35,013 nt of DNA, taken from an uncultured Anaerolineae bacterium. GTDB lineage: Bacteria > Chloroflexota > Anaerolineae > Anaerolineales > Villigracilaceae. The stretch spans positions 1-35,013 of the forward strand of contig CAIWAX010000334.1 in NCBI GenBank assembly GCA_903910795.1, in the 5' to 3' direction. Position numbers and translations under genes: made by a program. The notes under the pieces are model-generated. The model made no database searches and was not told where the DNA came from. It saw only the letters and a program-made list of their open reading frames with translations. Positions 544-34,625 of the stretch are shown in pieces (the stretch's first letter is position 1; each line of letters starts with the position of its first letter).

Positions 544-1254
544 CTAATGCCCTCCCAGATAGGCTTCAATGACGCTCTTGTCTTCAAGTAAATCATCACC
601 AGTGCCCTGCATCACAATCTTACCGGTTTCCAGTACGTAGGCTCGATCTGCGATCGCCAGGGCCATTTGGGCATTTTGTTCAACCAGCAGGATACTGGTG
701 CCCTGTTCGTTGATATCCTGAATGATGTCGAAAATTTGTTCCACGAGTAACGGTGAGAGACCCATGGATGGTTCATCCAGTAAGAGCAGGGTTGGGTGTG
801 CCATTAAGCCACGCGCGATCGCGAGCATTTGCTGTTCGCCGCCTGAGAGGGTGCCGCTGAGCTGGTTGCGGCGCTCGCGCAGGCGCGGAAAACGATCGAA
901 AACGGATTCAACATCACGTTTGATCACGGCCCGATCCTTCTGCGTGTAGGCGCCCATTTCCAGGTTTTCCCAGACAGCCATGCGCCCGAAAATTTTCCTG
1001 CCCTCGGGTACCTGGATAATGCCTTTACGGACGATATCCTGGGGGGGTGTTTGCTGGATTTCCTGCCCATCGAAAGAGATTTTCCCTTCCCTGGGGCGCA
1101 GAATTCCAGAGATGGTGTTGAGGGTGGTTGATTTTCCGGCTCCGTTGGCGCCAATCAAGGCCACAATCTCGCCCTTTTCGACTGAAAAATGAATACCCTG
1201 CAGGGCGTGAATGGCGCCGTAATAAACTTGTAGGTTTTCAATTGATAATAGCAT
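544..1254 (-). CDS. livF: Branched-chain amino-acid ABC transporter ATP-binding protein LivF
   Basis: This is one of the two cytoplasmic ATPases that power uptake of leucine, isoleucine and valine (or related amino acids) through the LivHM permease. The 236-aa product has the full ABC set: Walker A GANGAGKST, signature LSGGEQQ, Walker B LLLLDEPSMG, and the switch histidine position taken by VEQ, as is usual in LivF. The ending EAYLGGH is the typical LivF tail. The length is normal. The ATG at 1254 lies inside the last codons of livG (17-nt overlap), showing translational coupling. It is the last gene of the livJHMGF cluster. Real substrate specificity is set by the binding protein, so leucine-type amino acids are a family-level guess. 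Confidence 0.95.
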   Translation of the reverse strand: MLLSIENLQVYYGAIHALQGIHFSVEKGEIVALIGANGAGKSTTLNTISGILRPREGKISFDGQEIQQTPPQDIVRKGIIQVPEGRKIFGRMAVWENLEMGAYTQKDRAVIKRDVESVFDRFPRLRERRNQLSGTLSGGEQQMLAIARGLMAHPTLLLLDEPSMGLSPLLVEQIFDIIQDINEQGTSILLVEQNAQMALAIADRAYVLETGKIVMQGTGDDLLEDKSVIEAYLGGH

Positions 1255-2086
1255 GTCGCTGTTTCTTCCGTAATTGATATTTTTTTGTCAAGGAACTGCC
1301 GCCTGGGCCCAGATAGGCTTCGATCACTTTCTGGTTGGATTGAATTTCCCTGGGTTTCCCTTCTGCGATCTTGGTACCATAATCTAGAACAGTGATTTGA
1401 TCGGAAATATCCATGACAACGCGCATGTCGTGTTCGATCAATAGAATGGTGATCCCCAATTCATCCCGTAGACTGCGAATAAAATGTGTCATTTTATCGG
1501 TTTCCTGCGGGTTCATTCCAGCGGTTGGTTCGTCCAATAGAAGCAATCTGGGCTTATTCGCCAGCGCCCGGGCTATTTCCAGACGGCGCTGCGCGCCGTA
1601 AGGCAGGTTGCGCGCCAGGTGGTCTCCGAGACCTTCCAATCCGACAAACTTTAATAAGCGCCGGCCCTCTTCAATGGCAATTTTCTCTTCATTTTGCTCG
1701 CGGCGGGTCGAAATAATTGCATCCATCCAGTTGGCTGTAAAGCGCGGATATTGACCGACAATAATGTTTTCTATGGCAGTCATATCTGCGAATAAACGGA
1801 TATTTTGGTACGTTCGGGCAATCCCGAAAGAAGCGACTGAGTAAGTTTGTTCTCCCTGGATTTGTTGGCCGTAAAATATGATTTGCCCGTGTTCTGGTTT
1901 GTAGTAACCGGAAATACAGTTGAAAAGGGTGGTTTTTCCTGCGCCGTTTGGCCCAATGATACTTGCAATCGCGCCTTCCGGTACGCTCAGGTTAACAGCA
2001 TTTACGGCAGTCAAACCGCCAAAAATTTTCGATACTTTTTGGGTTTCTATACAGACTTGCATACCGAGCTTATGGGTACTTTCCAT
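1238..2086 (-). CDS. livG: Branched-chain amino-acid ABC transporter ATP-binding protein LivG
   Basis: This is the partner ATPase of LivF on the inner face of the membrane. The 282-aa product shows Walker A GPNGAGKTT, an LPYGAQRRLEIARAL signature region, Walker B LLLLDEPTAGMNP and the switch IEHDM. The NPQET segment after Walker B and the EAYLG close to the end are LivG marks. The ATG at 2086 is preceded by AAGGGGAAATAGCC, a usable ribosome-binding site, and follows the livM stop by a few bases. A second Met at residue 9 is a possible start. The protein continues about 18 residues past EAYLG with a basic tail (KKYQLRKKQRH), a little longer than common LivG. It overlaps livF. Confidence 0.95.
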   Translation of the reverse strand: MESTHKLGMQVCIETQKVSKIFGGLTAVNAVNLSVPEGAIASIIGPNGAGKTTLFNCISGYYKPEHGQIIFYGQQIQGEQTYSVASFGIARTYQNIRLFADMTAIENIIVGQYPRFTANWMDAIISTRREQNEEKIAIEEGRRLLKFVGLEGLGDHLARNLPYGAQRRLEIARALANKPRLLLLDEPTAGMNPQETDKMTHFIRSLRDELGITILLIEHDMRVVMDISDQITVLDYGTKIAEGKPREIQSNQKVIEAYLGPGGSSLTKKYQLRKKQRHAIIN

Positions 2087-2088
2087 GG

Positions 2089-3693
2089 CTATTTCCCCTT
2101 ACCGGGTGGTGTGTTTGTTTCAAGGTTGCCGGGGTGCGAGGCTGGATCGGTGGATGAGCGTTGATCTGCCGTAAATTTTTCCAAAACCGGCCGTTTGGCG
2201 GGCAGGAATCCCTCCGGTCTTAATCTCATCATCACGATCAATAGAATACCGAAAACCAACATGCGATAATTTTCAATTTCGCGCAATATTTCCGGCAGCC
2301 CTTTCAGCGCGAAAGCACCCAGGAAAATACCCGGAATGTTTCCAATTCCGCCAACGATTACAAGGCAGATGACATTGATTGCCACCATTAATTGATGATC
2401 ATCCGGGCCGGTGAACTGGTTGCGTGAGGCAAACAGGGCGCCTGCCAGGCCGGCAATCGCAGCGCTCAGCGCCAGCGCCAGCAGTTTGGAAACGAAGGCG
2501 TTGATTCCGGTGGCCCGCGCGACTGTTTCATCCAGGTTGATCGCTACCCAGGCTTTGCCGGTATGCGAGTTTTGCAGGCGATAAGCCAGGAAACTGACCA
2601 CCAGCACCGCAATGATGATGATGTACATGAAATCCACATCTGTGTTGAAAGAACTTCCGAAGAGCGTTGGGCCGCCAACATCGTGAACCCCACGCGGCCC
2701 GCCGGTAAACGTGGTGAGTAAATCGCTCTTCAACAGGATGCGGATGATCTCTGAAAAACCTAGCGTAACAATTGCCAGGTAGTCACCACGCAGATTCAGG
2801 ATCGGCAGGCCGATCAAGAGCCCTGAAATCCCGGCCACAACAATACCCAGTGCGAGCGCAATCCAGAAGTTCCACAACAAGTTGTGCGGAACCGGGGCAG
2901 TCAGCAGCGCAAATGTGTATGCGCCAATCGCAAAGAAGGCTACATATCCAATCACTAATTGCCCGGCCCACCCGGTGATAATGTTTAATCCCAGGCCGAG
3001 GATGATATAGATGCCAACTGTGCCGAAGACGTAGTTCCAATACCCACCCCAGGTGCGCGGCAGAATAATTAATGCGATTGCCACGATCAGGTAAAAACCA
3101 TAACGGGCATATTTGTTATTGAGCAAATCAGAAATTCGCTGAGAGTGAACTGTTTCGCTGATCGAACCAGAAGTATTCTCAATCATGGTTCTTATTTTTT
3201 GGCTTGTACGTACTTCCACCGCCACAAGCGCAGATAGAAAACTTGAAAGGGTCATCACTCCGAACAGCGCCAGGGCACCCAAAGTTGGGTTCTGGTTAAA
3301 AGTGAACATGGAAATTGATTCTGGCGATACCGATACCAGGTAAGCGCGCACATCGATATGGTTTGCAGCCACACTGCCAAAGATGAAGCCTGTCACAGCC
3401 GCGCAGAGGCCGCAGATGGCACCGGCGGAAAGACCCGCAAGCACTGCATCTTTGACGCTGTCGGGCCCATACAGCGGCCGTTTGGCTGCACTGACGCCGC
3501 ACCAGACTCCAACCAAAATCATGAAAATAACGAAATAAATCAAATCTGGCATTCCTGAAATACTTGGATTGCCCAGAATTTTGCCAATTAATTCTGCTCC
3601 GATGACCGTAAAGCCAATCAGGAACATCATCACCATGATGATCCCAAATATGGTCCCAGTTTGGATTCCATTTCGTACAGGCGAAGTTCTCAT
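2089..3693 (-). CDS. livM: Branched-chain amino-acid ABC transporter permease LivM with long N-terminal membrane extension
   Basis: This is a membrane subunit of the amino-acid importer. The canonical LivM core begins near residue 205 with YGFYLIVAIALIILP and continues through LGLNIITGWAGQLVIGYVAFFAIGAYTFALL, the GDYLAIVTLGFSEIIR loop and GGIGNIPGIFLGA, which is the EAA-type coupling loop. At 534 aa it is far longer than the usual 300-420. The first roughly 200 residues hold about four extra hydrophobic segments (e.g. TIFGIIMVMMFLIGF, DLIYFVIFMILVGVW). They are followed by a polar stretch (QKIRTMIENTSGSISETV) before the core. The reading frame is open and in operon, so this is not an assembly fusion by any sign I can see. 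Its ATG overlaps the livH stop as ATGA. Confidence 0.92.
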   Translation of the reverse strand: MRTSPVRNGIQTGTIFGIIMVMMFLIGFTVIGAELIGKILGNPSISGMPDLIYFVIFMILVGVWCGVSAAKRPLYGPDSVKDAVLAGLSAGAICGLCAAVTGFIFGSVAANHIDVRAYLVSVSPESISMFTFNQNPTLGALALFGVMTLSSFLSALVAVEVRTSQKIRTMIENTSGSISETVHSQRISDLLNNKYARYGFYLIVAIALIILPRTWGGYWNYVFGTVGIYIILGLGLNIITGWAGQLVIGYVAFFAIGAYTFALLTAPVPHNLLWNFWIALALGIVVAGISGLLIGLPILNLRGDYLAIVTLGFSEIIRILLKSDLLTTFTGGPRGVHDVGGPTLFGSSFNTDVDFMYIIIIAVLVVSFLAYRLQNSHTGKAWVAINLDETVARATGINAFVSKLLALALSAAIAGLAGALFASRNQFTGPDDHQLMVAINVICLVIVGGIGNIPGIFLGAFALKGLPEILREIENYRMLVFGILLIVMMRLRPEGFLPAKRPVLEKFTADQRSSTDPASHPGNLETNTPPGKGK

Positions 3694-4796
3694 AGTTTTT
3701 CCTCAGACAGTTTTTCGCCCAAAATACCAGATGGTCGGACGATCAATACCAGTACCAGGATCGAAAATGCGATCACATCTTTGAGTTGGAAGTCGATGCC
3801 GAGAGCTGCCGGGCCAATCGATTCTATGATTCCAAGGAACATGCCGCCCAACATCGCACCGGGGATGTTCCCAATACCTCCCATGACTGCGGCAGTAAAC
3901 GCTTTAATACCAGGCAGAAAACCAATATAGTGATTCACCAGCCCCATGTGGATATCCCACATCACGCCTGCGGCTCCAGCCAGCACACCGCTGATGATGA
4001 ATGTCTTGCTGATGACATCGTCAACATCCACACCCATCAGGGATGCAGTATTTTTATCCTGGGCCACAGCCCGCATGGCGCGCCCCAGCTTGGAGCGCTG
4101 CACGACTAAATAGAGGCCGATCATTAGCAGTGCGGAGAGAACCAGGGAAAAGACACCTGTGTAAGGAATGAGGACGGGATTTCCGCTGACCATCCAGGTC
4201 CAACCTGCACCGCGATCCAAAATGTCGGGGTTGATGACATTTTTACGAGTTGGCCCGAAAAGCAGCATGGCCAGGTTTTGCAGGAATATCGATGCGCCAA
4301 TGGCTGTGATCAGCAGGATCAGACGAGGCGCCTTTCGCAGGGGGCGATACGCAATTTTTTCCAGCAGGTAACCCGCCAGGGCAGATACAGAAATGCCGGC
4401 AGTAAACGCCAGGATGATTGAAACGATTGGATAAGCATTTAGAAAGTTCAGGTTTGGGTTGGCGGAGGTTGGCATTGGGATAAAGCGCAAAAGTTCCAAC
4501 ATGAAATAACCGCCGAAGGCCCCCAGCATCATTACTTCACCATGTGCAAAATTAATCATAAACATGATGCCGTATACCAGGGTATAACCGATTGCGATCA
4601 GCGCGTACATGCCTCCCAGGATCAAACCAGAAAGCCCAAATCGCACCCAGGTATCGGCGCTAAAATTATGCTGAACTACGATAACGGAATAAAGTTGCCA
4701 TGCTAAAAAGATGGCAATAATGACTCCAACGATTGGTCGGATATAGCGGCTCACGCGCAAGAGCAGCGGAAAACGGGGGGAACTCTTATTTTCCAT
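3690..4796 (-). CDS. livH: Branched-chain amino-acid ABC transporter permease LivH
   Basis: This is the second permease subunit. The 368-aa product contains the LivH hallmark LILGGMYALIAIGYTLVYG followed by MINFAHGEVMMLGAF, and the coupling loop GGIGNIPGAMLGG. About 45 residues, including one hydrophobic segment (YIRPIVGVIIAIFLAWQLY), precede the canonical core, so it is longer than the common 290-310 aa. The last four bases overlap livM (ATGA), a strong sign of coupled translation. A hairpin separates it from livJ upstream. Annotation as part of a hydrophobic or branched-chain amino-acid importer is secure. The exact substrate is not. Confidence 0.94.
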   Translation of the reverse strand: MENKSSPRFPLLLRVSRYIRPIVGVIIAIFLAWQLYSVIVVQHNFSADTWVRFGLSGLILGGMYALIAIGYTLVYGIMFMINFAHGEVMMLGAFGGYFMLELLRFIPMPTSANPNLNFLNAYPIVSIILAFTAGISVSALAGYLLEKIAYRPLRKAPRLILLITAIGASIFLQNLAMLLFGPTRKNVINPDILDRGAGWTWMVSGNPVLIPYTGVFSLVLSALLMIGLYLVVQRSKLGRAMRAVAQDKNTASLMGVDVDDVISKTFIISGVLAGAAGVMWDIHMGLVNHYIGFLPGIKAFTAAVMGGIGNIPGAMLGGMFLGIIESIGPAALGIDFQLKDVIAFSILVLVLIVRPSGILGEKLSEEKL

Positions 4797-4926: not shown

Positions 4927-6120
4927 TTACTTGGTTGCAGCAACCCATTGGCCGTTCTTGACGACATAGAAAACCGGGCCGGAAGCATTGCATTCGCCAT
5001 TTGCCTGGCAGGTGATCACACCAGCGATGCCCTGGTATTGTTTCAAACTGCGAACCGCGGCAACCAGCGCTCCACGTGGGATATAGATATTGTCGCCGCT
5101 TACAACCGCGACATTCTTGATGGCGGTGATCAGAGCTCCAACCGCGTCATAAGAGTTCCAGGTGTAAGCAGAAAGCACACCCGCGTCGGTACCATAGGTA
5201 TCCTTGTAAAGCTTGTTGAAAGCAATGATGGTATCGGTCGCCGGGGGAACCAGGGTGGCGGAATACACGCCTTCACCATTGGCGCCGGTCTTGGTCAGGA
5301 AATCCTTGCCATAAATGCCATCGCCGCCAAAGAAGATGGCTTTGGTAAGGCCAGCCTGCTTCATCTGGTTGACAAGCACGGAGGCTTCGGCGTTGTAACC
5401 GCCGTAATAAATGGCATCCGGGTTCTTGGAAGCCACGGCAGCCAGCGGCGCGCTGTAATCGGATTCACCGGGGGTGATGGCTTCAGCAGCCACGACTGTC
5501 CCGCCCAGTGCGGTGAAGTCAGCCTTGACGCCGTTCGCCAGACCCTGACCATAATCGGTGCCATCGTGCATGACAGCCAGGTTCTTGACCTTCAGTGTGG
5601 TGAAGAGATAATTGGCAGCGCCCTTGGCCTGGTCGGTATCGGTGAAGGCGTTGCGGTTGAAGACCTTGGAGCCCTTGGTGGTCAGATCCGGGTTGGTGGC
5701 GGAAGGTGACAGCATCGGAACGCCAGCTTTTTCATAAATAGGCATCGCGGCGGCAGTTGCGCCAGAGAAGGCATGTCCGGCCATGGCCACAAAGGTCTGG
5801 TCAGAGACCAGCTTGTTGGCTACGGCTGCGCCGCCTTCGGCGGAAGCGTTGTCATCCTGAACAGCCAGTTCAACTTTCCAACCATTGACATCGCCAAATT
5901 TGGCAACGGCAAGTTTCATGGCGTTGGACATGTCGATTCCAAACTGGGAGTAATCTCCAGACATCGGGCCGGCATAGCCAACCTTGATGGTTTGACCCTT
6001 GGCGATGACAGCGCAGCCGAGATCGGCCTTGCAGGCATCCGGCGTTGTCGCGGCAGCCGGTCCGCAGGACGCCAGCAGCAACGCGGCGACCAACATTACA
6101 AATACAACTATTCGTTTCAT
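4927..6120 (-). CDS. livJ: Branched-chain amino-acid ABC transporter substrate-binding lipoprotein LivJ
   Basis: This is the extracytoplasmic receptor that captures the amino acid and delivers it to LivHM. I place the start at the ATG at 6120, preceded by AAGGAGAAAGAG. The longer ORF reads through the kynU-livJ gap and has no signal peptide at its front. From that start the 397-aa protein begins MKRIVVFVMLVA and has a lipobox LLASC. The type I periplasmic-binding fold follows: IKVGYAGPMSGDYSQFG, then VANKLVSDQTFVAMAGHAFSGAT, PMLSPSATNPDLT and YYGGYNAEASVLVNQM. The length is normal. It is first of the transporter genes, 71 bp after kynU. A small stem (6162-6184) lies in that gap but has no T-run, so read-through from kynU is plausible. 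Confidence 0.93.
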   Translation of the reverse strand: MKRIVVFVMLVAALLLASCGPAAATTPDACKADLGCAVIAKGQTIKVGYAGPMSGDYSQFGIDMSNAMKLAVAKFGDVNGWKVELAVQDDNASAEGGAAVANKLVSDQTFVAMAGHAFSGATAAAMPIYEKAGVPMLSPSATNPDLTTKGSKVFNRNAFTDTDQAKGAANYLFTTLKVKNLAVMHDGTDYGQGLANGVKADFTALGGTVVAAEAITPGESDYSAPLAAVASKNPDAIYYGGYNAEASVLVNQMKQAGLTKAIFFGGDGIYGKDFLTKTGANGEGVYSATLVPPATDTIIAFNKLYKDTYGTDAGVLSAYTWNSYDAVGALITAIKNVAVVSGDNIYIPRGALVAAVRSLKQYQGIAGVITCQANGECNASGPVFYVVKNGQWVAATK

Positions 6121-6191
6121 CTCTTTCTCCTTGAAAAAATATTGGTTAACAGGATGTTCTCCACGAAGCCAATCGAGCTTCGCGAAAGTTC

Positions 6192-7460
6192 CTAGGTAAC
6201 GCTCAATCGGGTTGCAGGAAAACGTAAGTACCGTTTTTCTGTAATTACGCGTTCGATGCGGTTCACAACCTCCCAAACATCATGAAAAGAGGTGTACATG
6301 GGTGCTAATCCCAGCCGGATGTTATCGGGTTCGCGGAAATCCGGGATGACATTCATTTCTTCAATCAAAGCCCGGTTGATCTGATATGCATCTGGGTGGC
6401 GGAGGCTGACATGTGAGCCGCGTTGTTCAACCTCGCGCGGTGTGCCCAGGCTGAAACCCAGCGGCGCGAGATTTGCATCGAAAAGCGCCATCAGGTAATT
6501 GGAAAGTTGGATGGATTTTGCCCGAAGAGGTTGAATGCCGGCTTCCAACATCAGATCGACACCTGGCTCCATCGCCAGAACTGACAGGACTGGGGGAGTG
6601 CCGCACAAAAAGCGTTGAATCCCTTGCGCGGGAGTGTACCCCAGTTCAAAACTGAAAGGCGCTCGTTCTCCAAACCAACCCCAAATGGGGCTAAGCGCTT
6701 CTTTTTGTAGTCCATTGCGCACATATAAGAAAGCTGGCGCACCTGGGCCGCCGTTCAAATATTTATAGGTGCAGCCTGTCGCAAAATCTGCGTTCCAGTC
6801 ATCCAGTTCCACTGGAACCGAACCAACCGAGTGACTCAGATCCCACAACACCAGCGCCCCTTTTTGATGGGCGTATTGGGTGATGGTTTTGGCATCATAC
6901 ATATAACCGCTCTTGAAAACCACATGCGATAGGGCTACCAGGGCTGTGTTTGAATCGATCGCATCCAAAACAGTTTGTGTATCCACGCGCAACCCATCCG
7001 CCGGTTCCAGCATTTGGATGGTGTGTTTCCCACCCAATACATGGCTGCAACCCTGAAGCATGTAGAGATCAGAAGGAAAGTTTAAAGTATCGGTAATAAT
7101 CTTTTTTCGTTCAGGCCTTAACATTAAAGCTGACATCGCCAGTTTGTAGAGGTTGACGGTTGTCGAATCGCTGACTGCCACCTGTCCATGGTCAGCGCCA
7201 ACCAGCCCGGCGATTTTTTCACCCACTCGAATGGGTGCTTCAAACCAACCCTGTCCCCATGAACGGATCAGGTTTTCGCCCCATTCTTTCATGATGATTT
7301 CATTGACTCGCTGCGAGGTTGCCAGAGGCAGCCTTCCCAGAGAATTGCCATCCATGTAGATCATGTCTTGATCAGAGATAAAAAAACGATCACGATAGGA
7401 TGCTAATTTATCCTGTCTATCCAGGGATTTTGCAAAATCAGGCGAAGAATCAAAACTCAT
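6192..7460 (-). CDS. kynU: Kynureninase
   Basis: This is a PLP-dependent enzyme that cleaves L-kynurenine to anthranilate and L-alanine (tryptophan catabolism), cytoplasmic. The sequence matches the family along its length: YMDGNSLGRLP near the N-terminus, LIRSWGQGWFEAP, VSDSTTVNLYKL, DTLNFPSDLYM, LWDLSHSVGSVPVELD, then the PLP-lysine motif CTYKYLNGGPG with Lys233, and IWGWFGERAPFSFE. I chose the ATG at 7460 (GAAAGG about 10 nt before) over a TTG at 7496 that has no ribosome-binding site and overlaps the previous stop as TTGA. That gives 422 aa, normal for the family. It sits between a formyltransferase gene and livJ, which hints at a shared amino-acid uptake and breakdown unit. No tryptophan dioxygenase or formamidase is in the window. 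Confidence 0.94.
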   Translation of the reverse strand: MSFDSSPDFAKSLDRQDKLASYRDRFFISDQDMIYMDGNSLGRLPLATSQRVNEIIMKEWGENLIRSWGQGWFEAPIRVGEKIAGLVGADHGQVAVSDSTTVNLYKLAMSALMLRPERKKIITDTLNFPSDLYMLQGCSHVLGGKHTIQMLEPADGLRVDTQTVLDAIDSNTALVALSHVVFKSGYMYDAKTITQYAHQKGALVLWDLSHSVGSVPVELDDWNADFATGCTYKYLNGGPGAPAFLYVRNGLQKEALSPIWGWFGERAPFSFELGYTPAQGIQRFLCGTPPVLSVLAMEPGVDLMLEAGIQPLRAKSIQLSNYLMALFDANLAPLGFSLGTPREVEQRGSHVSLRHPDAYQINRALIEEMNVIPDFREPDNIRLGLAPMYTSFHDVWEVVNRIERVITEKRYLRFPATRLSVT

Positions 7461-7492
7461 TAAGTTTGAACCTTTCAGGGGTGGAAAGAAAA

Positions 7493-8206
7493 TCAATCTG
7501 CATAGTGGGAATAAAGCCCGGCGGCGAGCCGTTGTTTGCCCTCATCCAGCAAATCGTTGGGAATAACTTTATAAGTTTCCCCAATGTTAGGATCCTGAGG
7601 AATGCGCGCAGCCTCGCCGTTAGCGATCATTTTTAATGCTTCGGCCATTAATTCTCCGGAAAGCAATGCAATCCGGTAGTTCAGGCTTTCATAAGTGTCG
7701 TGATGATAAACAGGCAGTTGGCGCTTGACGATAATATCGCCGGTATCGATGCCAGGGTCAATAAAATGGGCAGTTGCCCCCTGGGGTAGATCTTTATAGA
7801 GTGCCCAACCGACCGAAGCCGAACCGCGCAATACCGGCAGCAATCCCGGGTGGGCGTTGACAGTGGCGCGGGTGGGAATTTCGAGGATGTTTTTTTTGAT
7901 AATTCGGGTGCCGCCCAGCACAAGAATTTCTGGTTTGAGCGAAACCAGTAATTCGCTGCAAGTTGCATCATTGTGGTTCGCCACACAATAAACCGGTATT
8001 TTCTTTCCTGCAATAAGCTCGGTCAGGCGAGGCGGGGAAGGCTGGCCTTTCATGCGCTGTAAGAATTTCTCACGTTCTTCATCACCAATGGCCGAAACTT
8101 CCTGGATAATGACTGCGGGTATCAGGTTATTTTGCAGCAAGATACGCAGCATCTCGCGGCCGTATGGATGTTCTTCCAAAACCAAAAAGGCAAATTTTAG
8201 CGTCAT
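7493..8206 (-). CDS. Formyltransferase-family protein (PurN/Fmt-like catalytic domain)
   Basis: This 237-aa cytoplasmic protein has the N-terminal Rossmann-type formyltransferase domain and no Fmt C-terminal tRNA-binding domain. The catalytic triad known from PurN and Fmt is present: Asn117 and His119 in VNAHPGLLP, and Asp154 in GIDTGDI. It therefore probably moves a formyl group with 10-formyl-tetrahydrofolate. The region between the start and residue 110 is not PurN-like enough to call it purine biosynthesis, and sugar-amine formyltransferases share the same core. Its stop lies 32 bp before the chosen kynU start, so the two are likely one transcript. A role on N-formylkynurenine is tempting but only an inference from position. 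The upstream gap to 8353 is AT-rich and probably holds the promoter. Confidence 0.82.
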   Translation of the reverse strand: MTLKFAFLVLEEHPYGREMLRILLQNNLIPAVIIQEVSAIGDEEREKFLQRMKGQPSPPRLTELIAGKKIPVYCVANHNDATCSELLVSLKPEILVLGGTRIIKKNILEIPTRATVNAHPGLLPVLRGSASVGWALYKDLPQGATAHFIDPGIDTGDIIVKRQLPVYHHDTYESLNYRIALLSGELMAEALKMIANGEAARIPQDPNIGETYKVIPNDLLDEGKQRLAAGLYSHYAD

Positions 8207-34454: not shown

Positions 34455-34625
34455 ATAAACCCTCGTTAGGCCAGGCGGCTGCAAGGTATACAAGCCATTG
34501 CCCTGAAACGTCCAAAGACGCGAAAGGGTAGACCAGGCGATGTCGGATTAAGGCATCGCTCAAGGTGGCTGGGAGATAAATTCCTTACGACGCGCAGTGC
34601 CAAAGCTAAACCAGGAGGTGGATCT
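34455..34625 (+). ncRNA. M-box (ykoK leader) magnesium riboswitch
   Basis: The conserved landmarks of the M-box aptamer occur in the right order: CCTCGTTAGG (34461-34470), GCCCTGAAACGTCCAAAGACGC with closing AAAGGGT, a variable arm (GCGATGTCGGATTAAGGCATCGC), and GTGCCAAAGCT with a final CCAGGAGGTGG. The M-box binds several Mg2+ ions and, in known cases, folds so that a downstream terminator forms when magnesium is plentiful. It normally controls magnesium-transporter genes (mgtE, corA, mgtA). Here a consensus promoter precedes it and an intrinsic terminator follows it. The AGGAGG at its 3' end can pair with CCTCCT of the terminator, the expected anti-terminator switch. The controlled gene is not visible in the window. 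Confidence 0.9.

Follow-up and report, generated by a model that had tools for sequence, protein, structure and literature searches.

In a 35,013-nucleotide stretch of DNA from an uncultured anaerolinean, analysed here as a whole and termed the window, a gene for a single-domain formyltransferase (FT) directly precedes genes for kynureninase and a Liv-type amino acid importer. The linkage of FT to kynureninase recurs in other Chloroflexota genomes and is not due to chance, and the two enzymes very probably share a pathway. More tentatively, we propose that the genes form a cassette for scavenging amino acids of the kynurenine type, in which FT would salvage a formyl group onto tetrahydrofolate (THF), the substrate, acceptor and direction of FT and the ligand of LivJ being predictions. 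FT may thus be an N-formylkynurenine:tetrahydrofolate formyltransferase that works with kynureninase and a dedicated importer in bacteria unable to make kynurenine. We put this reaction forward only provisionally; it is the best single reading, although the shared pathway is far more certain. The cassette consists of the following genes of the window:

7493–8206, minus strand: FT, single-domain 10-formyl-THF-type formyltransferase of 237 aa (PF00551; triad N117/H119/D154; no Fmt C-terminal domain)
6192–7460, minus strand: kynureninase (likely ATG start at 7460; reading frame open to 7496)
4927–6120, minus strand: LivJ-type lipoprotein substrate-binding protein (reading frame 4927–6276; lipoprotein ATG at 6120)
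3690–4796, minus strand: LivH-type permease (profile match)
2089–3693, minus strand: LivM-type permease (profile match)
1238–2086, minus strand: LivG-type ATPase (profile match)
544–1254, minus strand: LivF-type ATPase (profile match)

Transcription runs from FT through kynureninase, LivJ, LivH, LivM and LivG to LivF. Recomputed reading frames and gaps gave 32 bp between FT and kynureninase and 71 bp between kynureninase and LivJ, matching the same-strand arrangement described in an earlier sequence-only reading of this DNA. A promoter scan found no promoter-like site in the kynureninase–LivJ gap, a weak result given that the yield of the scan was no better than chance, and no Rfam match near the cassette pointed to riboswitch control. 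An M-box (ykoK) magnesium riboswitch was matched at 34455–34623 on the plus strand of the window (118 bits). We also searched for signs of plasmid or viral spread of the cassette, with no match.

The kynureninase exceeded the TIGR01814 equivalog cut-off (310.1 versus 246.4 bits) and matched the Pseudomonas fluorescens enzyme 1QZ9 at 1e-106. All catalytic residues checked are kept (the PLP lysine K227, with D132, D201, H204, Y226 and W64), and the G281/T282 pair is as in the kynurenine-preferring Pseudomonas (bacterial) enzyme. On score and active site the protein is a true member of TIGR01814, and the original kynureninase call stands. Among FT-less kynureninases of the family, those of six genomes (G008, G024, G025, G102, G109 and G132) align as two separate segments. 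The break falls near residue 155 of a single long open frame, suggesting an in-frame insertion.

FT matched Formyl_trans_N with 71 bits (cut-off 26). The Asn-His-Asp triad and the lack of the Fmt tRNA domain, both reported from the sequence, were found as described, and in an alignment the triad was invariant across 19 relatives, planctomycete ones included. A confident structural model (mean pLDDT 93) resembles Fmt, ArnA and the hydrolase domain of FDH (ALDH1L1), with TM scores of about 0.7. Equivalog scores nevertheless fell under every cut-off: Fmt 73 versus 201.5 bits, PurN 64 versus 150, PurU 30 versus 286, ArnA 60 versus 777 and sugar N-formyltransferase 42 versus 238. There was no match to the KynB family by PF04199 or TIGR03035. 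FT shares its fold, triad and an HPGLLPxxRG loop with Fmt, ArnA, the sugar N-formyltransferases and PurN; it differs from them in its single domain, sub-cut-off scores, lack of a tRNA or sugar context and own N-terminal signature (FLxLEEHPYGREMLR). Judged on its sequence, it belongs to the 10-formyl-THF-type formyltransferase superfamily (PF00551) as an unnamed subfamily with predicted THF binding, and is not an Fmt, PurN, PurU, ArnA, sugar formyltransferase or KynB.

The importer is complete in one operon, with a substrate-binding protein, two BPD_transp_2 permeases and two ATPases, and LivJHMGF follow kynureninase in that order, as first read. The five-gene architecture and protein families are those of the branched-chain Liv (HAAT) importer; the window's version differs in scoring below the Liv equivalog cut-offs and in the pocket of LivJ. 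LivJ keeps the LIVBP-type contacts to the alpha-amino and carboxylate groups (S79, T102, Y202 and an acidic residue at 226, E226D), and its side-chain pocket is altered relative to LIVBP (L77A, C78F), a change retained in most FT-linked copies. The pocket is therefore predicted to suit an amino acid, without indicating which.

FT orthologues were present in 9 of 150 genomes of the same GTDB family, the window's included, the other eight at 69–82% identity. All nine fall among the 85 sampled family genomes with kynureninase, against none among the 65 without (p = 0.005). Kynureninase is the next gene after FT in eight of the nine, followed by LivJHMGF in the same order wherever the family contig is long enough. 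In the ninth genome (G072), one contig carries an intact FT followed by a kynureninase remnant and another the reverse, an intact kynureninase preceded by an FT remnant (L088 10590–11593 and L089 8431–9970); its bin has 6% contamination and may be two genomes. When 84,980 species genomes were scanned, a further six Chloroflexota loci emerged, together with one in a metagenome-assembled genome labelled Bacteroidetes; all seven have kynureninase directly downstream of FT. Outside the window's genome, FT orthologues thus occur in 14 Chloroflexota genomes at 61–82% identity, with kynureninase immediately downstream (split and decayed in one). The sequence-only reading had named two grounds for its own rejection that these loci address: loss of gene order among relatives, which fails because the order FT–kynureninase is kept, and a dTDP-sugar context, of which there was no sign, as the loci that were examined contain no nucleotide-sugar genes alongside FT.

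The surroundings of the pair vary, with about nine different flanking contexts among the Chloroflexota genomes, including MiaA-FtsH-LysM, 2-oxoacid:ferredoxin oxidoreductase, TldD/PmbA-like, IleS-TyrS, nucleoside importer, LeuS and GyrB genes. Liv genes lie beside FT–kynureninase in 10 of the 14 other Chloroflexota genomes; three loci (L110, L111 and L113) lack them, and at L116 the Liv operon is divergent from the pair. In the Bacteroidetes-labelled genome (L112), an AA_permease (324 bits) follows kynureninase in place of Liv; downstream, a gene whose product bears a Por_Secre_tail sorting domain agrees with Bacteroidota. The same locus has a group I intron match at 2113–2387 on the plus strand (85 bits). 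One family genome, G077, has kynureninase and LivJHMGF at the syntenic place (L092 3580–10701) without FT and a cNMP-binding gene. In two relatives a second, different Liv operon comes right after the first (L091 9288–11659, L092 1–3287). Planctomycete relatives of FT (38–48% identity) are not beside kynureninase; one is convergent with a neighbouring amino-acid permease gene (L153 2242–3636, minus strand).

On a tree built from 41 kynureninases, linkage to FT requires at least three changes. A single clade of all FT-linked kynureninases was rejected (AU p = 1.6e-4; 6e-5 with the FT-less G077 added) because the L112 enzyme falls with the kynureninases of the Pseudomonas and planctomycete type. 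FT itself is similar at all of these loci (72% identity in L112). For the Chloroflexota sequences alone a single clade was not rejected (p = 0.43), and therefore two independent pairings of FT with kynureninase are shown, not more.

The oxygen-dependent dioxygenase (TDO), reported as absent from the window, is indeed absent there, and is likewise absent from the whole 92%-complete genome and from each of the 16 genomes in which FT is linked to kynureninase (the window's, eight others of the family and seven further genomes). By comparison, TDO occurs in 36 of the 76 family genomes that have kynureninase but no FT; Fisher's tests against the nine sampled FT genomes (p = 0.005) and within the largest genus (p = 0.016) are indicative, since related genomes are not independent. 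Planctomycetes have TDO in 134 and kynureninase in 107 of 151 genomes, too commonly for their six FT genomes to inform this contrast. Given the absence of TDO, kynurenine or N-formylkynurenine should come from outside FT-bearing cells, in agreement with the attached importer. The idea that FT supplies the KynB function missing from TDO organisms was rejected, as family members with TDO carry no FT.

The proposed search of the genome for kynA and kynB returned no TDO and one KynB-like gene. A KynB-like cyclase is encoded in 3 of the 16 FT genomes (G000, which is the window's, G072 and G154), with scores of 156–168 bits against a TIGR03035 cut-off of 223. The copy in the window's genome, on contig C257 outside the window, scores 156 bits, and FT is therefore not the sole candidate deformylase there.

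N-formylkynurenine is the sole formyl compound of the kynurenine pathway, and kynureninase acts on kynurenine. We propose that LivJHMGF would import N-formylkynurenine and/or kynurenine that has arisen extracellularly, either from other organisms or through oxidation of tryptophan. FT, working against the usual direction of its superfamily, would then move the formyl group from the anilide nitrogen to THF, yielding 10-formyl-THF for use as a one-carbon unit or for ATP through formate–THF ligase run backwards, and kynureninase would split kynurenine into L-alanine and anthranilate. Because 10-formyl-THF is itself an N-formyl anilide, FT appears chemically suited to formyl exchange between an anilide nitrogen and THF, and exchange with N-formylkynurenine should be near thermoneutral. 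ATP-yielding reversal of formate–THF ligase is known in purine and histidine fermenters. The uptake and formyl-salvage reading offered from the sequence thus gains from the gene order, the lack of a sugar context and the absence of TDO, and loses from the KynB-like gene in the window's genome; it stays an inference. Also weighing against it are the FT-less G077, the KynB-like genes of the two other FT genomes, the planctomycete relatives located elsewhere, and the fact that FT never occurs with TDO in the family, whose TDO-bearing members would profit from a general N-formylkynurenine deformylase.

Two alternatives keep FT in a pathway with kynureninase and change its reaction. FT could run in the usual direction with 10-formyl-THF as donor, N-formylating kynurenine, anthranilate or another imported aromatic amine, or serving a kynurenine analogue. 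Its full triad fits such a role, and to our knowledge all characterised transferases with an intact Asn-His-Asp triad run forward. An importer beside a catabolic lyase argues instead for breakdown, however, and across the examined loci the cassette shows no recurrent genes for biosynthesis, resistance or export; we regard forward formylation as unlikely, if worth serious attention. FT could otherwise hydrolyse N-formylkynurenine and release formate, standing in for KynB as a non-orthologous enzyme in which THF is only structural or absent, like its hydrolase relatives PurU and FDH-N. The formyl-releasing FDH hydrolase domain and PurU are among its nearest matches, the former being the nearest PDB sequence match (1e-14), and no PF04199 (cyclase-family) protein was found in five FT genomes (G093, G055, G141, G119 and G152, with G141 and G119 only 79–85% complete). 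However, the transferase Asn is retained in FT as N117, the aligned residue of the FDH domain being Ile; FT is also unfused, whereas the FDH domain is joined to a dehydrogenase, and KynB-like genes persist in three FT genomes. We consider hydrolysis rather improbable.

The remaining alternatives concern the purpose of the pair, or deny it one. Kynureninase makes anthranilate, and TrpE is missing in five FT genomes (G150, G151, G153, G154 and G156), as might be expected if anthranilate were salvaged for tryptophan. In Chlamydia caviae, kynU lies inside the trp operon and replaces anthranilate synthase (PMC3937554). The FT cassette is not so placed, and the same five genomes also lack TrpD, leaving anthranilate unusable, while TrpE and TrpD are both encoded in the genome of the window. 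Anthranilate salvage is thus refuted for the FT genomes without TrpD, none of the cases combined an absent TrpE with a present TrpD, and overall we consider it very improbable. From the TrpE/TrpD pattern we conclude that tryptophan salvage is not the purpose and that the pathway is most simply catabolic, giving alanine and anthranilate. Scarcely credible, finally, is a housekeeping FT (a replacement GAR transformylase, or a variant Fmt or sugar formyltransferase) that adjoins kynureninase incidentally. A PF00551 search of the window's genome did return only FT and a separate Fmt (on C115), with no PurN. FT is patchily distributed, though, which led us to reject a replacement PurN; its scores lie far below the PurN, Fmt and sugar formyltransferase cut-offs, and a sugar formyltransferase was also rejected for want of a nucleotide-sugar cluster at the examined loci. 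The adjacency to kynureninase, moreover, holds across some nine contexts and two kynureninase lineages.

If the preferred reading of formyl transfer to THF is true, FT would provide a third chemical solution for N-formylkynurenine deformylation, beside KynB and the eukaryotic serine-hydrolase formamidase, with the formyl group retained as carbon bound to folate or as energy. An unannotated formyltransferase subfamily, clearly marked by its sequence signature, would gain a function, and (formyl)kynurenine would be indicated as a nutrient for uncultured Anaerolineae. We found no paper linking kynureninase to a formyltransferase or describing such an enzyme, and as far as the literature searched shows the linkage is undescribed.

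With the bacterial KynA (TDO)–KynB (formamidase)–KynU pathway the cassette has in common a bona fide kynureninase and the proposed intermediate; it differs in its attached importer and in the absence of TDO from every genome with a kynureninase-linked FT. The known bacterial N-formylkynurenine deformylase KynB is a zinc enzyme (PMC4243253) of a zinc-dependent fold, whereas the deformylating candidate of the cassette has a formyltransferase fold. Tryptophan recycling by the Chlamydia kynU-prs genes likewise applies kynureninase to external kynurenine in an organism without TDO. The FT cassette differs in lying outside a trp operon, in that TrpE and TrpD occur together or are missing together, and in bringing together FT and an importer.
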